From the NCBI GenBank assembly GCA_023249675.1, contig JAHFCE010000023.1, positions 1 through 50,719 on the forward strand: a stretch of DNA of 50,719 nt. The letters are read 5' to 3'. Each line of letters opens with the position of its first letter. Within the stretch, counting starts at the first letter, position 1. The notes under the pieces were generated by a model that was not told the origin of the DNA, did no database searches, and saw only the letters and a list, made by a program, of their open reading frames with translations. This DNA comes from Elusimicrobiota bacterium. Lineage in GTDB: Bacteria > Elusimicrobiota > Elusimicrobia > UBA1565 > UBA9628. The position numbers and the translations under genes are program-made. This document shows, in pieces, positions 44,420 through 50,719 of this stretch.

Positions 44420-44868
44420 TGCCCGCTCCCCAGAACGACGCGCGCCGCGCGGCCCTCGTCAAAGGCGCGTCCAAGGCCAAGATCAAGGCCCTCATCAATT
44501 TGTCCGCCTGCACCGGCTGCGAAGTCTGCATCGCGGTCTGCCCGGTCCCGCAGTGCATCGAGAAGTTCGGCGAGGATCCCTCGAACACGGGTGTCTGGGT
44601 CAACTACGACATCTGCATCGGCTGCCAGCTCTGCGCCAAGGACTGCCCGTGGGACACGATCCGCATGGTGCCGACGCCGACAGTCGCGATGGATCAGACC
44701 TCGCTCGATTCCCAGCTCAATCACGAGCACGCCGTCTTCCAGAAGCCCGAACTCGTGCCTGAAGAGATTCGCGGCTTCTTGACGAAGGCTCCCAAGACCG
44801 ATCCCGCCGTGCTCGAGCTTTTCGGCAAGAACAACCCCATCGTTCCGGGGCCCATGAGCCCAAAGTAG
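44419..44868 (+). CDS. 2[4Fe-4S] ferredoxin-like protein
   Basis: This 149-residue protein has two cluster motifs, CTGCEVCIAVCPVPQC (residues 31-46) and CIGCQLCAKDCP (66-77), within a longer chain that has a basic N-terminus and a Pro-rich C-terminal tail. It is an electron carrier of the 8Fe type; the tail may dock it to an enzyme. It is translationally coupled to the peroxiredoxin gene. Its redox partner is not visible. Confidence 0.85.
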   Translation: MPAPQNDARRAALVKGASKAKIKALINLSACTGCEVCIAVCPVPQCIEKFGEDPSNTGVWVNYDICIGCQLCAKDCPWDTIRMVPTPTVAMDQTSLDSQLNHEHAVFQKPELVPEEIRGFLTKAPKTDPAVLELFGKNNPIVPGPMSPK

Positions 44869-44881
44869 CCTTCGCGCGCCC

Positions 44882-46411
44882 ATGAGATATTCATCAGCCA
44901 TCGGCGGACTATTTTTGGTCTCTTTGGTGTTTATCGCTGGCTGCGGCCCGCTGATGGTCAACATGGCCTACAGGCCTGAGGGCCCGGCTCAGCCGGTCCT
45001 CTTCGAGCGCCGGCCGCCCCTCTTCCTCGCGCCGGTCACCAACGCCACGGACGGGAAGGTCGAGACCTACCAGGGACCGTTCCAACTCACGCAGTCGGCG
45101 GAGCAGACGCTCCGGGATGCGCTCGCCACCGAGCTCGGCCGTCTGCAGTATCCGTTGGCCGAAACCGCGCAGCAGGCGGAAGGCGTCGTGGAGGCGGTCG
45201 TGGCGCGGATGGCCATCGACTTGACCGGGACCCAAGGCCTCAGCGACCTCGTCCAGGCCGAGTACTCTCTCGATGTCACCGTCAAGGACTCGCGGCAAAG
45301 AGCGCTCATCGCGAAGAGGATCACCGGCACCGCCAAGGCGGTGCGCCCCGGATTCGGGATACCCAGCGCGCTCTACTCCGGGATGATGACCAGCGCCATC
45401 GGCCAGGCCATGGGAAAGCTCGGCCCATTTTTCGAGTCCCAAGACCTCTTGGCCCTGCTCGAGGGTCGACGGCCCAACCGCAAGGCAGTCGCGGTCGAGG
45501 CACCCGCGCCGATCCGTCTGCATAGCCAGGGGAAGTCAAAGAAGGCGATGGTAACGATCATTCCACAGGGAGAAGAGGCTCCGCCGCAGGCCGCGCCCGA
45601 GCCGCCCGCCGCGCCAGCTGCGCTGCCCTCGGATATCGACGAACTTCCCACCGCCAGATTTCCAGCTCGGCAGGACGCTTATGCGGTGGTCATCGGCGTC
45701 GGCAAGTACCGCCAGAAACTTCCGCCGGCGGACTTCGCAGATGGGGACGCGCGGGTCGTCGCACGCTATTTGACGAAGGTTCTGGGCTACCAGGATGCCA
45801 ACGTCGCCATGCTCGTCAACAACGAGGCAACCAAAGGCGATTTTGAGAAATATTTCGACCAGTGGCTGCCTAACCGCGTGGAGAAGGATGCCGAGGTCTT
45901 CATTTATTACTCCGGACACGGCGCGCCCAATCCAGAAACGGGCGACGCCTATCTTGTGCCTCATGACGGAGATCCGACCTATCTCAAGCAGACGGGCTAT
46001 CAGCTCAAGAACCTCTACGCGGCGTTGTCCAAGCTCCCAACTCGCCATATCACCGTGGTCTTGGATTCATGCTTCTCGGGCGCAGGCGGACGCTCGGTTC
46101 TTGCCAAGGGCGCGCGGCCGCTGGTCAACGTGAGGCTAGGCGGAGTTGTCCCTTCGAACATCAGGGTCCTTTCCGCCTCGGCCGCCGACCAGATCAGCCA
46201 CGCTTATGAGGCGCAGGGCCATGGGCTCTTCACTTACTTCTTACTCAAGGGCATCAAGGAACAGACAGGCAAGGGGTCGGTGGACATGAAGAAGGTTTTC
46301 GATTCCGCCGTGCCCCAGGTGAGCAATATTGCTCGGCGCGAGTACAACAGCGACCAGGTGCCGCAGTGGCAGGAATCGGCAAGAACAACCGCATCGTTCC
46401 GGGGTCGATGA
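44882..46411 (+). CDS. Lipoprotein with caspase-like (peptidase C14) domain
   Basis: This 509-residue protein has a lipoprotein signal peptide with lipobox IAGC (Cys21). Residues 30-200 form a domain related to lipoprotein or GNA1162-type assembly folds (repeated strands and amphipathic helices). After a Pro/Ala linker, residues 265-505 form a caspase/metacaspase fold: AYAVVIGVGKYRQKLPP, FIYYSGHGAP with catalytic His346, and VVLDSCFSGAGG with catalytic Cys397. Both catalytic residues are intact. It would be a cysteine protease tethered to a membrane in the periplasm. A second, very similar lipoprotein begins at 49448. Confidence 0.85.
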   Translation: MRYSSAIGGLFLVSLVFIAGCGPLMVNMAYRPEGPAQPVLFERRPPLFLAPVTNATDGKVETYQGPFQLTQSAEQTLRDALATELGRLQYPLAETAQQAEGVVEAVVARMAIDLTGTQGLSDLVQAEYSLDVTVKDSRQRALIAKRITGTAKAVRPGFGIPSALYSGMMTSAIGQAMGKLGPFFESQDLLALLEGRRPNRKAVAVEAPAPIRLHSQGKSKKAMVTIIPQGEEAPPQAAPEPPAAPAALPSDIDELPTARFPARQDAYAVVIGVGKYRQKLPPADFADGDARVVARYLTKVLGYQDANVAMLVNNEATKGDFEKYFDQWLPNRVEKDAEVFIYYSGHGAPNPETGDAYLVPHDGDPTYLKQTGYQLKNLYAALSKLPTRHITVVLDSCFSGAGGRSVLAKGARPLVNVRLGGVVPSNIRVLSASAADQISHAYEAQGHGLFTYFLLKGIKEQTGKGSVDMKKVFDSAVPQVSNIARREYNSDQVPQWQESARTTASFRGR

Positions 46412-46514
46412 GCCTGAAGTAAAGCCGGGTCCCCATCCCCTCGCCTAATCCCCCGGGCGAGAACGCCTCCTGGGACCATTGGCACCTCATGAGGGGTCGA
46501 AGGTCCCTGGACTG

Positions 46515-46542
46515 TTGACCGGTGCGACTGTTAGCCTAAGAT
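46515..46542 (+). promoter_or_regulatory. Promoter of the macro-domain multidomain gene
   Basis: TTGACC (46515-46520), 16 bases, TAAGAT (46537-46542). The -10 overlaps the first ATG (46541), so if this promoter is used translation must begin at the ATG at 46547 or the GTG at 46553. Between 46411 and here I see only a weak CTCGCC/GGCGAG hairpin without a T-run. Confidence 0.45.
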
Positions 46543-49312
46543 GGGTATGTTAGTGATTCTTCTTTCGGTACTGCTCGGGTTTATCCCGAGCGCGGACGCT
46601 GCGGGGGTCGCCACAGGCCTGCCGCCGCGCACCCTCTCCTCCATACACTCTTTTCTTCGTTCGCCTACGCCCGATTGGGGCACGCTGACGACTGCTGTCT
46701 CCTTTCTTCGCAGCGTCGATCTAAACGATCCAGCAACTCTCGAGCGTGTCAGGCCCATCGTCGAGGAGCTGCGGAGTGTTGCCCAGCGGCAGCTTGACTC
46801 GTCACCTCGCTCCGGTACGACCGAATCTGAGCTATTCGCCGCTTCTCAGAAACTCCGGCTTCTCAATGAGCCCGAATTCCGCAATCTGTTGACATCGGAG
46901 CAGCAGCGTCGCATAGGGGCGGCATTCTGGGCCTATAGCGAGCATCTTGTTGAGGACGTGCGTCTGGAGCGTTGGTCGCCATCGAAGTTCACGCTGGAAG
47001 AGAAGATCAAGGGCATCGCCAGGGCGTTGGAGGCGTCACGCGTCGTTCCGGGCGAACTTGGGACACCGACATTGAGGAGTGATCCGGCGGTCGCAGTCGA
47101 GATCGTCAGCGCTGATGTCTCAAAAGTCAAATCGGACGCCCTGATCTGCGGAGTGCAGCTGGCGGGTCTTTGCCACGGCGGGATTAACGCGATGATCGGG
47201 AGGGTCGGAGGCGATGGTTTTCACAGGCAAGTCGACGCCGCGAAGCCCTTGCGCGACGGTCAAACGCTTGTTGCGCGAGGCGATCGCAAGAACACAGGTC
47301 TCTTTCAGAACGTCGTCTTTTTCGCCGACAACATGCGCCTGCCTCTCCGCGAGCTCGTATTCAATAGCTTAAAAGCCGCCGATGAAGCCGGGTTCCAATC
47401 GGTCTCTCTGCCCGCGGCGCGGACAGGCTACTACTACGGCCTGCTCGAAAAGACCTACGAGGAACTGGTCGCTGAGACGATTAAAGGCGTTGACGCGTTT
47501 CTTAAGGCCGGCCGGAAGAACGTCGAAAATATTTCCATCGTCGTCCATAATAATCCAAGGCTCTTGTCCCTGTTCAAGGCGGTTCAGTCGACCGATTCTG
47601 AGCGCGAGGCGCTGCGTCAAACCAGGCTTTCCGGAAAGGGCTTCTCTCTTTCGCCCCGGGCAAAGCGAGTTTCAGCGAGGCGGCGGGGCACTGCCATCGT
47701 CCAAGACCTGCTCGCCCCGTGGGATCTCGCGCGTATGCTCAAAGGCCGTACGCCGCAAAAGATCGGCGTCATTGAGGCCCGTGCCGCATTCAGTAGGCCG
47801 TCGGTCTCCGTTCTCAATCTCCCGATCAAGATGCCAGGCACTGATTTTCGGATTCCGGCCGAACTTGAGCAATACCGCGAGTTCCTTCAGAAGATTATCG
47901 ACGATCAAGTCGCCGTCAACCCGAACTGGAGCGAGTTCCACGCCTATTTGACCGTCGACAGCGGGTTCGTCAAGAAGGGCAGCTATCACCGGCGACCAGG
48001 CATCCATATCGATGGGGTGCAGGGTTCGCGTTATATGCAGAAGCTGCCGCCTGAGAATACTTATTCGGCGAGTGATGCCGTCGGCACCGTCTTTTACGCG
48101 CAGCCCTTCGATTTGAGACACATCCAAGCAGACCGCGACTACATCCATGGCGAACTCGAGCGCCAAGCCGATGAAAGAAATGCGGTACAGACCGCCAATT
48201 ACGGGATCTACCACTGGGACTCTTACTCCGCCCATCGCGCGGCAGTCGCCGAGCAGGACATTGCGCGCACGTTCGCACGCGTCGAGTTCAGCAAGAAGGT
48301 CTACGACAGTGTGGGCGACACGGTTAACCCGCTCTTCGATTACTCGTGGCCCCGCCTGCCGCGCCCCATCCCCTACGAGCTTAACTGGCATGCGGAGAAG
48401 CTCGCTAAGGTCGTCCATGAGAAAGGTCGGCGTGCCAACAGCGTCTCGATTGCGTTCGTTTCGGGAACGACCGCTTCCAAGCGCCGGGCGCTTCTCGATC
48501 TCGTACGGGTTCGCCGCGCCGCGGACGTTGGTCCGTTGGTGAGAATTCTTTCCCAGGACCCGGCCGTGGCACGGATATTGGTCTCAGACAAAATCGCGCC
48601 GTTGTGGGATTTGGTAACCGACTACCCTATCCTCGATGGGCGCACCGCGTTTCCTGAACTCGGTCGCCCGATCGATGATCGGACCATCGTCGAAGGCTCC
48701 AAAGGCTCTGGCGGCGGGCAGACGGACTTCTTGATCGACTATTCGGATCTTGATCTGCGACGGGGCGTACTTGAGCCCGCGCGCGCAATCGGAGCCAAGA
48801 AGGCCGACGATTGGGCGAAGTTCCAGAAGCTGCAGGCTCTTGTCCACCGTGCGCTGCCACGTGACGGCTGGCGCGAGGGCGGCAATGACCCCGAGTATGC
48901 CGCGTTCCTGGCGCGCACGAAAGGCGCGGCGCGCGTGAGCTTGGGCGAATACATCCGACTGGGCATCGGGGTCTGTCGCGAGAACGCTCTACTGACGGTC
49001 GTTGCTTTGCGCGCGGCCGGCTATAAGGCGCGCTACGCTTATTTCAAGGCCTTCAAGGCCGACGGCTCGTTCGATCAGGATCATGCTGTCGCCATCGTCG
49101 AACTTGGAGGGACGACGTACGTGCTCGATAGTTACCGGCTGCTGGGCCGTTACTATAACGGCCATCGGCTTGCCGATCTTTTGCAGCCGCCGGCCAACGG
49201 CAAGTACGTTGAGGCGGGCCCGCTTGCTGCTGAAAACGCCAGCGATCCTGGCGGCTGGAAGCTCGTCCTCAATACCTTTCCACGCGTTAGGCCGCTCCTG
49301 GAAGATCGATGA
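46541..49312 (+). CDS. Exported protein with macro, 2OG-Fe(II) oxygenase-like and transglutaminase-like domains
   Basis: This 923-residue protein has a signal peptide (MLVILLSVLLGFIPSADA). Three segments are recognisable. Residues of about 185-345 look like a macro domain: VEIVSADVSKVKSDALICG, LCHGGINAMIGRVGG as the ADP-ribose loop and SLPAARTGYYYG as the second loop. Residues of about 465-600 look like a 2-oxoglutarate/Fe(II) oxygenase double-stranded helix: GIHIDG (His489, Asp491), SYSAHRAA (His565) and RTFARVEFS (Arg576 or Arg580). Residues of about 800-870 look like a transglutaminase/protease core: GVCRENALLT (Cys812), DQDHAVAIVEL (His848), YVLDSYR (Asp863). Each set has its key residues. 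I know of no protein with this combination. It lies between two caspase-like lipoproteins. Two later in-frame starts (46547, 46553) are possible. Confidence 0.65.
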   Translation: MGMLVILLSVLLGFIPSADAAGVATGLPPRTLSSIHSFLRSPTPDWGTLTTAVSFLRSVDLNDPATLERVRPIVEELRSVAQRQLDSSPRSGTTESELFAASQKLRLLNEPEFRNLLTSEQQRRIGAAFWAYSEHLVEDVRLERWSPSKFTLEEKIKGIARALEASRVVPGELGTPTLRSDPAVAVEIVSADVSKVKSDALICGVQLAGLCHGGINAMIGRVGGDGFHRQVDAAKPLRDGQTLVARGDRKNTGLFQNVVFFADNMRLPLRELVFNSLKAADEAGFQSVSLPAARTGYYYGLLEKTYEELVAETIKGVDAFLKAGRKNVENISIVVHNNPRLLSLFKAVQSTDSEREALRQTRLSGKGFSLSPRAKRVSARRRGTAIVQDLLAPWDLARMLKGRTPQKIGVIEARAAFSRPSVSVLNLPIKMPGTDFRIPAELEQYREFLQKIIDDQVAVNPNWSEFHAYLTVDSGFVKKGSYHRRPGIHIDGVQGSRYMQKLPPENTYSASDAVGTVFYAQPFDLRHIQADRDYIHGELERQADERNAVQTANYGIYHWDSYSAHRAAVAEQDIARTFARVEFSKKVYDSVGDTVNPLFDYSWPRLPRPIPYELNWHAEKLAKVVHEKGRRANSVSIAFVSGTTASKRRALLDLVRVRRAADVGPLVRILSQDPAVARILVSDKIAPLWDLVTDYPILDGRTAFPELGRPIDDRTIVEGSKGSGGGQTDFLIDYSDLDLRRGVLEPARAIGAKKADDWAKFQKLQALVHRALPRDGWREGGNDPEYAAFLARTKGAARVSLGEYIRLGIGVCRENALLTVVALRAAGYKARYAYFKAFKADGSFDQDHAVAIVELGGTTYVLDSYRLLGRYYNGHRLADLLQPPANGKYVEAGPLAAENASDPGGWKLVLNTFPRVRPLLEDR

Positions 49313-49447: not shown

Positions 49448-50719
49448 ATGAACTGGTCTTTGATTGCTGCCTTCAGTCTCTTCTTTTTCATTGTGGGGTG
49501 CGCTCCCACGCGGCATGATCCCTTCGCGAATCTTGGCGACGCCAAGCCCAGAGTCCTTGGACCGCTGAGAGCCCTCACTGTGGCTAAGGTCTACTCGGAG
49601 AACACGAAGACTGTCCCGCTCTATACCTCGGCAGCCAAGGTGATGACGTTCGGAACCGTCAATACCACGTTGATCCCGGGAATCGAGCGCTTTCTCGCAG
49701 AGAATTTTAAATCCGTGATAAAAGCGGAGAAACTTGAGCAGGCCGAGGCGAGCGGCGCGGATGTGATCGTCGTGATCGATGTCTACGGCGCGGCGAAAAG
49801 ATACGGTTATGGCATCCCGGACGTCCACTGGGACGCCAAGGTCATCTTCATGAAGCCGGACCGGGAGGAGATCGCGACCGTGCACGGCGAATCCCACAAG
49901 CGATCGGTGGTGGGAGGGATTATTGGGATGGGGGGCCTGCTGCCGACCCAGATGGCATCGGCAGCCGTAGTCAACCATGCTGCGGAGAAGGAGACCCTGG
50001 ATCACCTGCTGGCGGAATTCGAAGCGACAGCGAGGGGGAAGTTAGCTCGGTTCGCGGAGGCGCGCTCCGTTCAGGGCGTCCCGGCGCCGGCGCTCGCCAA
50101 GATCATCGTGTCCGACGTGGACAAACCGAACTATACGATTGAGCCAGATCCGCGGAAATTTGCCCTTGTGATGGGTGTGGAGAAGTACAAGAGCCTGCCC
50201 CAGGCCCAATACGCGGAGCGCGATGCGGCCGCGGTATACGCCCATTTGATGGCGTTAGGTTACCCGGAGAAAAACATCAAATACCTCGCGGCGCTCGACG
50301 CGACGAGATCCGGGCTGCAGAAGAATCTCGAGACCTGGCTTGTCCGAGTCGTCAAGGCGGACAGCGAGGTCTTTTTCTATTTCTCTGGACATGGCGCACC
50401 CGATCCGGAAACGGGCAAGGCTTATCTGGTCCCGTGGGACGGCGACCCCCAATATCTCAATGAGACGGCCTACCCCGTGCAGAAGCTCTACGAATCGCTC
50501 GCGGGCTTGAAAGCTCAGAATGTCATCGTGGCGTTGGATTCCTGCTTTTCAGGCGCCGGAGGACGTTCCGTCCTGCCCAAAGGCGTCCGGCCGTTGGTAA
50601 ATAAGGTGGATATCGGCGCACCCCTTGGCGAGGGTTCCCACGCCATGGTCGCGCTGACCGCCTCCGGAGGCAATCAGATCTCGGGTACGCTTGACGAGCA
50701 AGGTCATGGTGCGTTCACA
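49448..50719 (+). CDS. Lipoprotein with caspase-like domain (runs off the window)
   Basis: The frame is open from ATG 49448 to the last base (424 residues seen). It has a lipoprotein signal (FFFIVGC, Cys18), an N-terminal domain of about 200 residues ending in a glycine-rich hydrophobic stretch (VVGGIIGMGGLLP), and a caspase-like domain from about residue 240: FALVMGVEKYKSLPQAQYAE, FYFSGHGAPDPETG with His315 and ALDSCFSGAGGRSVLPKG with Cys366. The caspase half is very similar to that of the lipoprotein at 44882, including GAP(D/N)PETG(K/D)AYLVP, but the N-terminal domains differ. Catalytic residues are intact; the end lies outside the window. Confidence 0.85.
   Translation, partial: MNWSLIAAFSLFFFIVGCAPTRHDPFANLGDAKPRVLGPLRALTVAKVYSENTKTVPLYTSAAKVMTFGTVNTTLIPGIERFLAENFKSVIKAEKLEQAEASGADVIVVIDVYGAAKRYGYGIPDVHWDAKVIFMKPDREEIATVHGESHKRSVVGGIIGMGGLLPTQMASAAVVNHAAEKETLDHLLAEFEATARGKLARFAEARSVQGVPAPALAKIIVSDVDKPNYTIEPDPRKFALVMGVEKYKSLPQAQYAERDAAAVYAHLMALGYPEKNIKYLAALDATRSGLQKNLETWLVRVVKADSEVFFYFSGHGAPDPETGKAYLVPWDGDPQYLNETAYPVQKLYESLAGLKAQNVIVALDSCFSGAGGRSVLPKGVRPLVNKVDIGAPLGEGSHAMVALTASGGNQISGTLDEQGHGAFT

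Follow-up and report, generated by a model that had tools for sequence, protein, structure and literature searches.

A predicted exported Elusimicrobiota protein combining a macro domain, a 2-oxoglutarate-Fe(II) oxygenase and a transglutaminase-like domain

Introduction

In a 2.6 Mb Elusimicrobiota genome, an open reading frame (ORF) for 923 residues lies between two genes for caspase-like lipoproteins, raising the question of what a single, apparently exported chain would do with a macro domain, a 2-oxoglutarate (2OG)-Fe(II) oxygenase-like domain and a transglutaminase-like domain, and whether the neighbouring caspases take part. The contig that carries it, of 50,719 bases, is the window, i.e., the whole stretch of DNA analysed here (Table 1). 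We tentatively favour, with a probability of roughly 45%, the view that the protein works on its own as an exported, modular enzyme and belongs to a small family in Elusimicrobiota; its nucleotide- or ADP-ribose-binding module would bring a thiol enzyme and an oxygenase to a target. This reading is based on the predicted folds of the macro and oxygenase domains, the profile match of the transglutaminase-like domain, invariant oxygenase residues, the shuffling of modules among relatives, and the lack of a conserved gene partner.

Table 1. Features of the locus, with positions in the window
Feature	Residues	Position	Strand	Basis or remark
Caspase-like lipoprotein 1		44882..46411	+	Peptidase_C14, E 2.8e-18; neighbour, judged outside the system
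923-residue ORF: N-terminal module, macro, 2OG-Fe(II) oxygenase, transglutaminase-like	1-923	46541..49312	+	ATG start
Probable Sec signal peptide MGMLVILLSVLLGFIPSADAA	1-21	46541..46603	+	Sequence; similar, more typical ones in relatives
Helical N-terminal module	~22-180	46604..47080	+	Full-length model; common to unrelated exported proteins of the class
Macro domain	~183-350	47087..47590	+	NCBIfam profiles, predicted fold, alignment
2OG-Fe(II) oxygenase domain (PHROG 1843 family)	~351-617	47591..48391	+	PHROG profile, conservation, domain model
Predicted metal-binding H489-x-D491 (HID)	489-491	48005..48013	+	Invariant in 43 sequences
Predicted metal-binding H565	565	48233..48235	+	Invariant in 43 sequences
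R576, likely 2OG carboxylate-binding Arg	576	48266..48268	+	Invariant in 43 sequences
Linker	~618-740	48392..48760	+	pLDDT mostly <50
Transglutaminase-like domain (C812, H848, D863)	~741-880	48761..49180	+	DUF553 profile, full-length model
Caspase-like lipoprotein 2		49448..50719	+	Peptidase_C14, E 2.5e-11; neighbour, judged outside the system; contig end cuts the gene

The open reading frame and its predicted export

The extent given for the chain in the initial annotation is exact, and all residues named there sit at the numbers assigned to them. An in-frame TAG lies 9 bases 5' of the ATG, so that a longer N-terminus is impossible. The start of the protein resembles a signal peptide without the usual positive charge, and relatives with a complete N-terminus have clearer signal-peptide-like starts; we infer from the sequence that the protein is exported. 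The ORF varies rather little in base composition over its length and its frame stays open, which speaks against an assembly chimera, although only sequencing reads could exclude that origin.

A helical N-terminal module, absent from the earlier description, precedes the macro domain. This module also heads FGE-sulfatase proteins, ABC1-kinase/CAAX-protease proteins and large exported Elusimicrobiota proteins of unknown function, and it recurs in two further proteins of the same genome (L147, G000:C17; L148, G000:C41), one of the two matches being weak. It is possibly a lineage-specific carrier domain. Further carriers were seen elsewhere, at loci L022, L023, L150 and L151.

The macro domain probably binds rather than hydrolyses

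The predicted fold of residues 178-356 matched many macro structures with Z scores of 15-17. Among these, E. coli YmdB (YmdB/PRK00431 type) matched with a Z score of 17.0 over 161 residues and has Asp192 and the glycine loops in common with the present domain, which differs from that type in being fused and, as judged from sequence, exported, and in its altered loops. NCBIfam ADP-ribose-binding models matched at E 2e-5 with the full protein and 1e-6 with the isolated stretch, far under the equivalog cut-offs, and the Pfam Macro score was sub-threshold (12.7 bits; cut-off 22). The ADP-ribose-type macro fold proposed earlier is thus upheld by fold and NCBIfam profiles.

Asp192 is kept, whereas the MacroD motif NAAN is replaced by CGVQ and GGGVDG by CHGGIN (Cys211, Asn216); the second loop reads TGYYYG. 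In comparison with Thermus TTHA0132, Gln takes the place of the second NAAN Asn in all Elusimicrobiota family members, their GGGVDG loop has an Asn, and Cys211 is an invariant Cys specific to the Elusimicrobiota macro family, which has the signature VQ....[LF]C.[GA]G[IV]N. The catalytic Asn (NAAN) and Asp (GGGVDG) of MacroD-type hydrolases are therefore absent. From what is established for MacroD enzymes, such a loss makes classical hydrolase activity less likely and a role in binding more so, and the macro domain thus probably binds rather than hydrolyses.

The oxygenase domain and its predicted active site

The oxygenase domain has no Pfam family and is matched by PHROG 1843, a family of unknown function (E 5e-21); searches of its sequence profile against PDB and Pfam gave chance matches only. 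Because the macro domain filled the fold search made with the full-length model, the oxygenase domain was folded alone, and the resulting model (pLDDT 87, pTM 0.87) has a double-stranded beta-helix fold. Its top PDB matches are Fe/2OG oxygenases almost without exception: the structures of PHD2/EGLN, EvdO2, SptF and ThoJ have the same beta-helix and HxD...H...R arrangement (Z 10.5-10.7, reaching 10.7 with PHD2 and 10.5 with EvdO2), whereas identity to them is 8-15%, and the present domain belongs to an unannotated lineage (PHROG 1843/8970) and lies within a chain predicted to be exported.

Three alignments, with 13, 28 and 43 sequences (the last mostly from phages), all show His489, Asp491, His565 and Arg576 as invariant, which is far beyond chance. 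In the 43-sequence alignment, the sole invariant columns are these four, which coincide precisely with the iron and 2OG ligands that a member of the superfamily should have, and two glycines, Gly487 and Gly492. Arg580, which the initial annotation had listed beside Arg576, is Arg or Lys in relatives and drops out of the site, while the other residues proposed for it stand. Site invariance and the fold of the domain model agree with the earlier call of an oxygenase-like domain, and a 2OG-Fe(II) oxygenase with a predicted competent active site is well supported.

Homologues in phages and plasmids

Homologues of the oxygenase are encoded by phages of Rhizobium, Agrobacterium, Microbacterium, Salicola, Erythrobacter and others, by megaplasmids and by one Megaera plasmid. 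A scan of viral contigs with the four Elusimicrobiota sequences alone as the query found nothing; with a broader alignment, homologues were found at 80 loci, in as many viral contigs. The PHROG 1843 phage proteins (e.g., of Rhizobium phage RHEph01 and Salicola phage SCTP-2) have the same domain and invariant site, but unlike the fused Elusimicrobiota domain they are stand-alone proteins, mostly of 200-250 residues, of unknown function. The oxygenase assignment thereby offers a testable function for PHROG 1843/8970, a widespread phage family so far without one.

The PHROG 1843/8970 proteins (L046-L125, L024, L027, L041-L045) appear to be an unannotated 2OG-Fe(II) oxygenase family with two subgroups, marked by GNRPGWHSDG and HRRPGxHIDGYW...HESLPV, respectively; the four site residues are common to both. 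The homologue in Erythrobacter phage XM05 (L027:3989-4654) is labelled 'DNA endonuclease V', a label that is probably wrong as its sequence is of the oxygenase family. A small protein lies beside the phage oxygenase at eight loci (L051, L052, L084 and others), nearly always just upstream, and forms one cluster; it is a possible partner of the phage oxygenase. DUF7352 was found in six of the phage-oxygenase neighbours scanned. An RNA-repair role of the phage homologues was hinted at by three loci, but wider neighbour scans and ligase distances lend it no general support.

The transglutaminase-like domain

Residues 799-864 match Pfam DUF553 (E 1.9e-6; 27.9 bits, cut-off 20.5), a match recovered again from the genome side, and Transglut_core is sub-threshold (17.7 bits; cut-off 23). 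Resemblance to DUF553 and transglutaminase-like domains (PF04473, PF01841) lies in the profile match and in the Cys-His-Asp order; in contrast to those families, the present domain has no close relatives in the 231 class genomes, plasmids and viral contigs searched. In the full-length model, Cys812 opens a helix and His848 and Asp863 lie on the next two strands, at a low confidence for this placement (pLDDT about 45-60). The triad domain described earlier is thus upheld by profile and residue order, with a structural placement of low confidence, and is less secure than the other two domains. As for the exported three-domain chain as a whole, the macro and oxygenase parts are borne out by profile, conservation and fold, the transglutaminase-like part by profile and residue order, and export is predicted.

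A small family with exchangeable modules

The N-terminal module and the macro domain occur together in eight Elusimicrobiota genomes, namely the present one and G188, G292, G333, G334, G278, G329 and G113; presence is sporadic (7-8 of ~235 genomes). In the named genomes searched, the relatives come from Elusimicrobia MAGs, which places the present genome in Elusimicrobiota. The relatives are 41-58% identical and most have the oxygenase, but where the 923-residue protein has its transglutaminase-like domain they have nucleotidyltransferase- and/or phosphorylase-like modules, labels that rest on sub-threshold Pfam matches (weak NTP_transf_2 and PNP_UDP_1). Downstream of the macro domain, G188, G333 and G292 encode the oxygenase and a phosphorylase-like module; G329 encodes a nucleotidyltransferase-like module and the oxygenase, as does G278, apparently split across two contigs; and G113 encodes a nucleotidyltransferase-like module without an oxygenase. 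In G334, N-terminal module, macro, oxygenase, nucleotidyltransferase-like and phosphorylase-like regions stand in a row across a 10-base gap. The oxygenase can be internal or C-terminal, and its pairing with a transglutaminase-like domain is found, within the family, only in the present genome. The G292 relative, on a complete chromosome (L017:8500-11500), has at least two frameshifts, owing to either a pseudogene or sequencing error.

No other genome among those searched encodes the trio of macro, oxygenase and transglutaminase-like domains, and no published protein with the three was found in the open-access literature, in line with the earlier remark that none is known. The domains are all of known superfamilies; it is their combination that is undescribed there. 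The family also shows modules being shuffled downstream of an unvarying carrier, in a phylum about which little is known. The family has no conserved gene partner: in G188, G292 and G333 the gene lies between a glycosyltransferase gene and plsX, whereas in the present genome that interval, of about 780 bases, holds no family member and the gene lies at the caspase locus.

A proposed mode of action

In the favoured reading, the signal peptide would direct the chain across the inner membrane, and the N-terminal module, which further large exported proteins in this class also have, might carry or place the protein. With its ligand-binding loops kept, the macro domain would bind ADP-ribose, or a nucleotide group akin to it, and so hold the target. 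The oxygenase would bind iron through His489, Asp491 and His565 and 2OG through Arg576, and would hydroxylate the held target. The last module would be exchangeable: here a transglutaminase-like Cys-His-Asp enzyme that may cleave or cross-link protein, and in relatives a phosphorylase- or nucleotidyltransferase-like one. We infer the ligand of the macro domain, the activity of each site, the action of the modules on one target and the identity of that target.

The missing positive charge at the protein start and the poor model of the transglutaminase-like domain, with its lack of close relatives, count against this reading. The main difficulty is cofactor supply. Outside the cytoplasm, 2OG, reduced iron and ADP-ribose should be scarce, which makes an exported 2OG oxygenase unusual: it would have to work in a special niche or be delivered into another cell. 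In a wider form, the protein would stand for a hitherto unrecognized class of exported proteins with several enzymes in one chain. Their macro domain, capable of binding only, would bring a phage-shared 2OG oxygenase, along with a second enzyme that can be exchanged, to targets bearing ADP-ribose or a nucleotide tag, either outside the cell or in another organism; this generalization is improbable, if well short of negligible.

Alternative explanations

The alternatives are taken in falling order of probability. Delivery into another cell, the chief rival, would solve the cofactor supply: the protein would be a Sec-exported, effector- or polymorphic-toxin-like carrier, whose exchangeable C-terminal module, here the transglutaminase-like one, would act inside a competing cell or a host protist, both of which offer 2OG, iron and ADP-ribosylated targets. 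A constant N-terminus with variable modules swapped downstream is the arrangement by which polymorphic toxins are recognized; it was found here, as was a sporadic distribution. Candidatus Megaera, known to live as a symbiont of protists, has a related oxygenase, and Orpheovirus has a structural relative. Polymorphic toxins and effectors that take Sec/T2SS routes are known to carry transglutaminase domains as their tips (PMC3482391). However, the 135 bases between the gene and that of caspase 2 hold no ORF of immunity-gene size (at this locus), toxin tips are not typically nucleotidyltransferase- or phosphorylase-like, the oxygenase is not confined to the C-terminus, the N-terminal module is also carried by FGE-sulfatase and ABC1-kinase proteins, which are no toxin set, and three members share one conserved locus. 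Such an effector is therefore considered unlikely.

A slightly less probable explanation is that the macro, nucleotidyltransferase-like, phosphorylase-like and oxygenase modules carry out nucleotide chemistry in the envelope, with nucleosides, ADP-ribose or the ends of nucleic acids as substrates, and that the present member gained its transglutaminase-like tip late. The row of modules in G334, the weak PNP_UDP_1 and NTP_transf_2 matches and the RNA ligase and kinase genes adjoining some phage homologues are consistent with this, but those profile matches are under curated cut-offs, RNA ligase is encoded in 12 of the 43 phage records and near the oxygenase in few, and a thiol enzyme tip does not fit.

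It is quite doubtful that the protein is mostly a scaffold, with the macro and transglutaminase-like domains as inactive remnants and only the oxygenase catalytic. The loss of the MacroD catalytic residues and the poor transglutaminase-like model point in that direction, and inactive transglutaminase domains in exported proteins provide a precedent (PMC3482391); against it, none of Cys812, His848 and Asp863 is missing or out of order, and DUF553 scores above its cut-off.

The caspase-like neighbours

The two flanking proteins look like lipoproteins, are 47% identical over 214 residues and both keep the His and Cys motifs. Caspases of this family occur in 62 of the 231 class genomes, often in several copies, and Peptidase_C14 caspase-like lipoproteins are strikingly expanded in the class, often as tandem pairs. 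G278 and G329, which encode the macro-oxygenase protein, have no such caspase at E<=1e-20. At the syntenic locus of G198, the same upstream genes as here, for cytochrome c, a glycosyltransferase-like protein and ferredoxin, are followed by two caspase genes ~50 bases apart with nothing between them; as the caspase site is empty there and the glycosyltransferase-plsX interval is empty in the present genome, presence of the family is not tied to one locus.

The initial annotation had suggested that the 923-residue protein and both caspases belong to one extracytoplasmic system that could modify or cleave proteins, a very improbable reading that has adjacency on the same strand and the intact caspase motifs in its favour, and against it the multiple caspase copies, the G198 pair without the gene and the other neighbours of the relatives, which together indicate that the trio is not a conserved system. 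The genome survey suggested along with it found no conserved neighbourhood of this kind, defence-system models matched the caspases but not the 923-residue protein, and the caspase neighbourhood looks like a coincidence. Through a 46-base direct repeat (89%; 44822-44867 and 46376-46421), caspase 1 ends in a copy of the 3' end of the ferredoxin-like gene, which is out of frame there and supplies the last codons of that protein; the repeat marks an earlier recombination around caspase 1.
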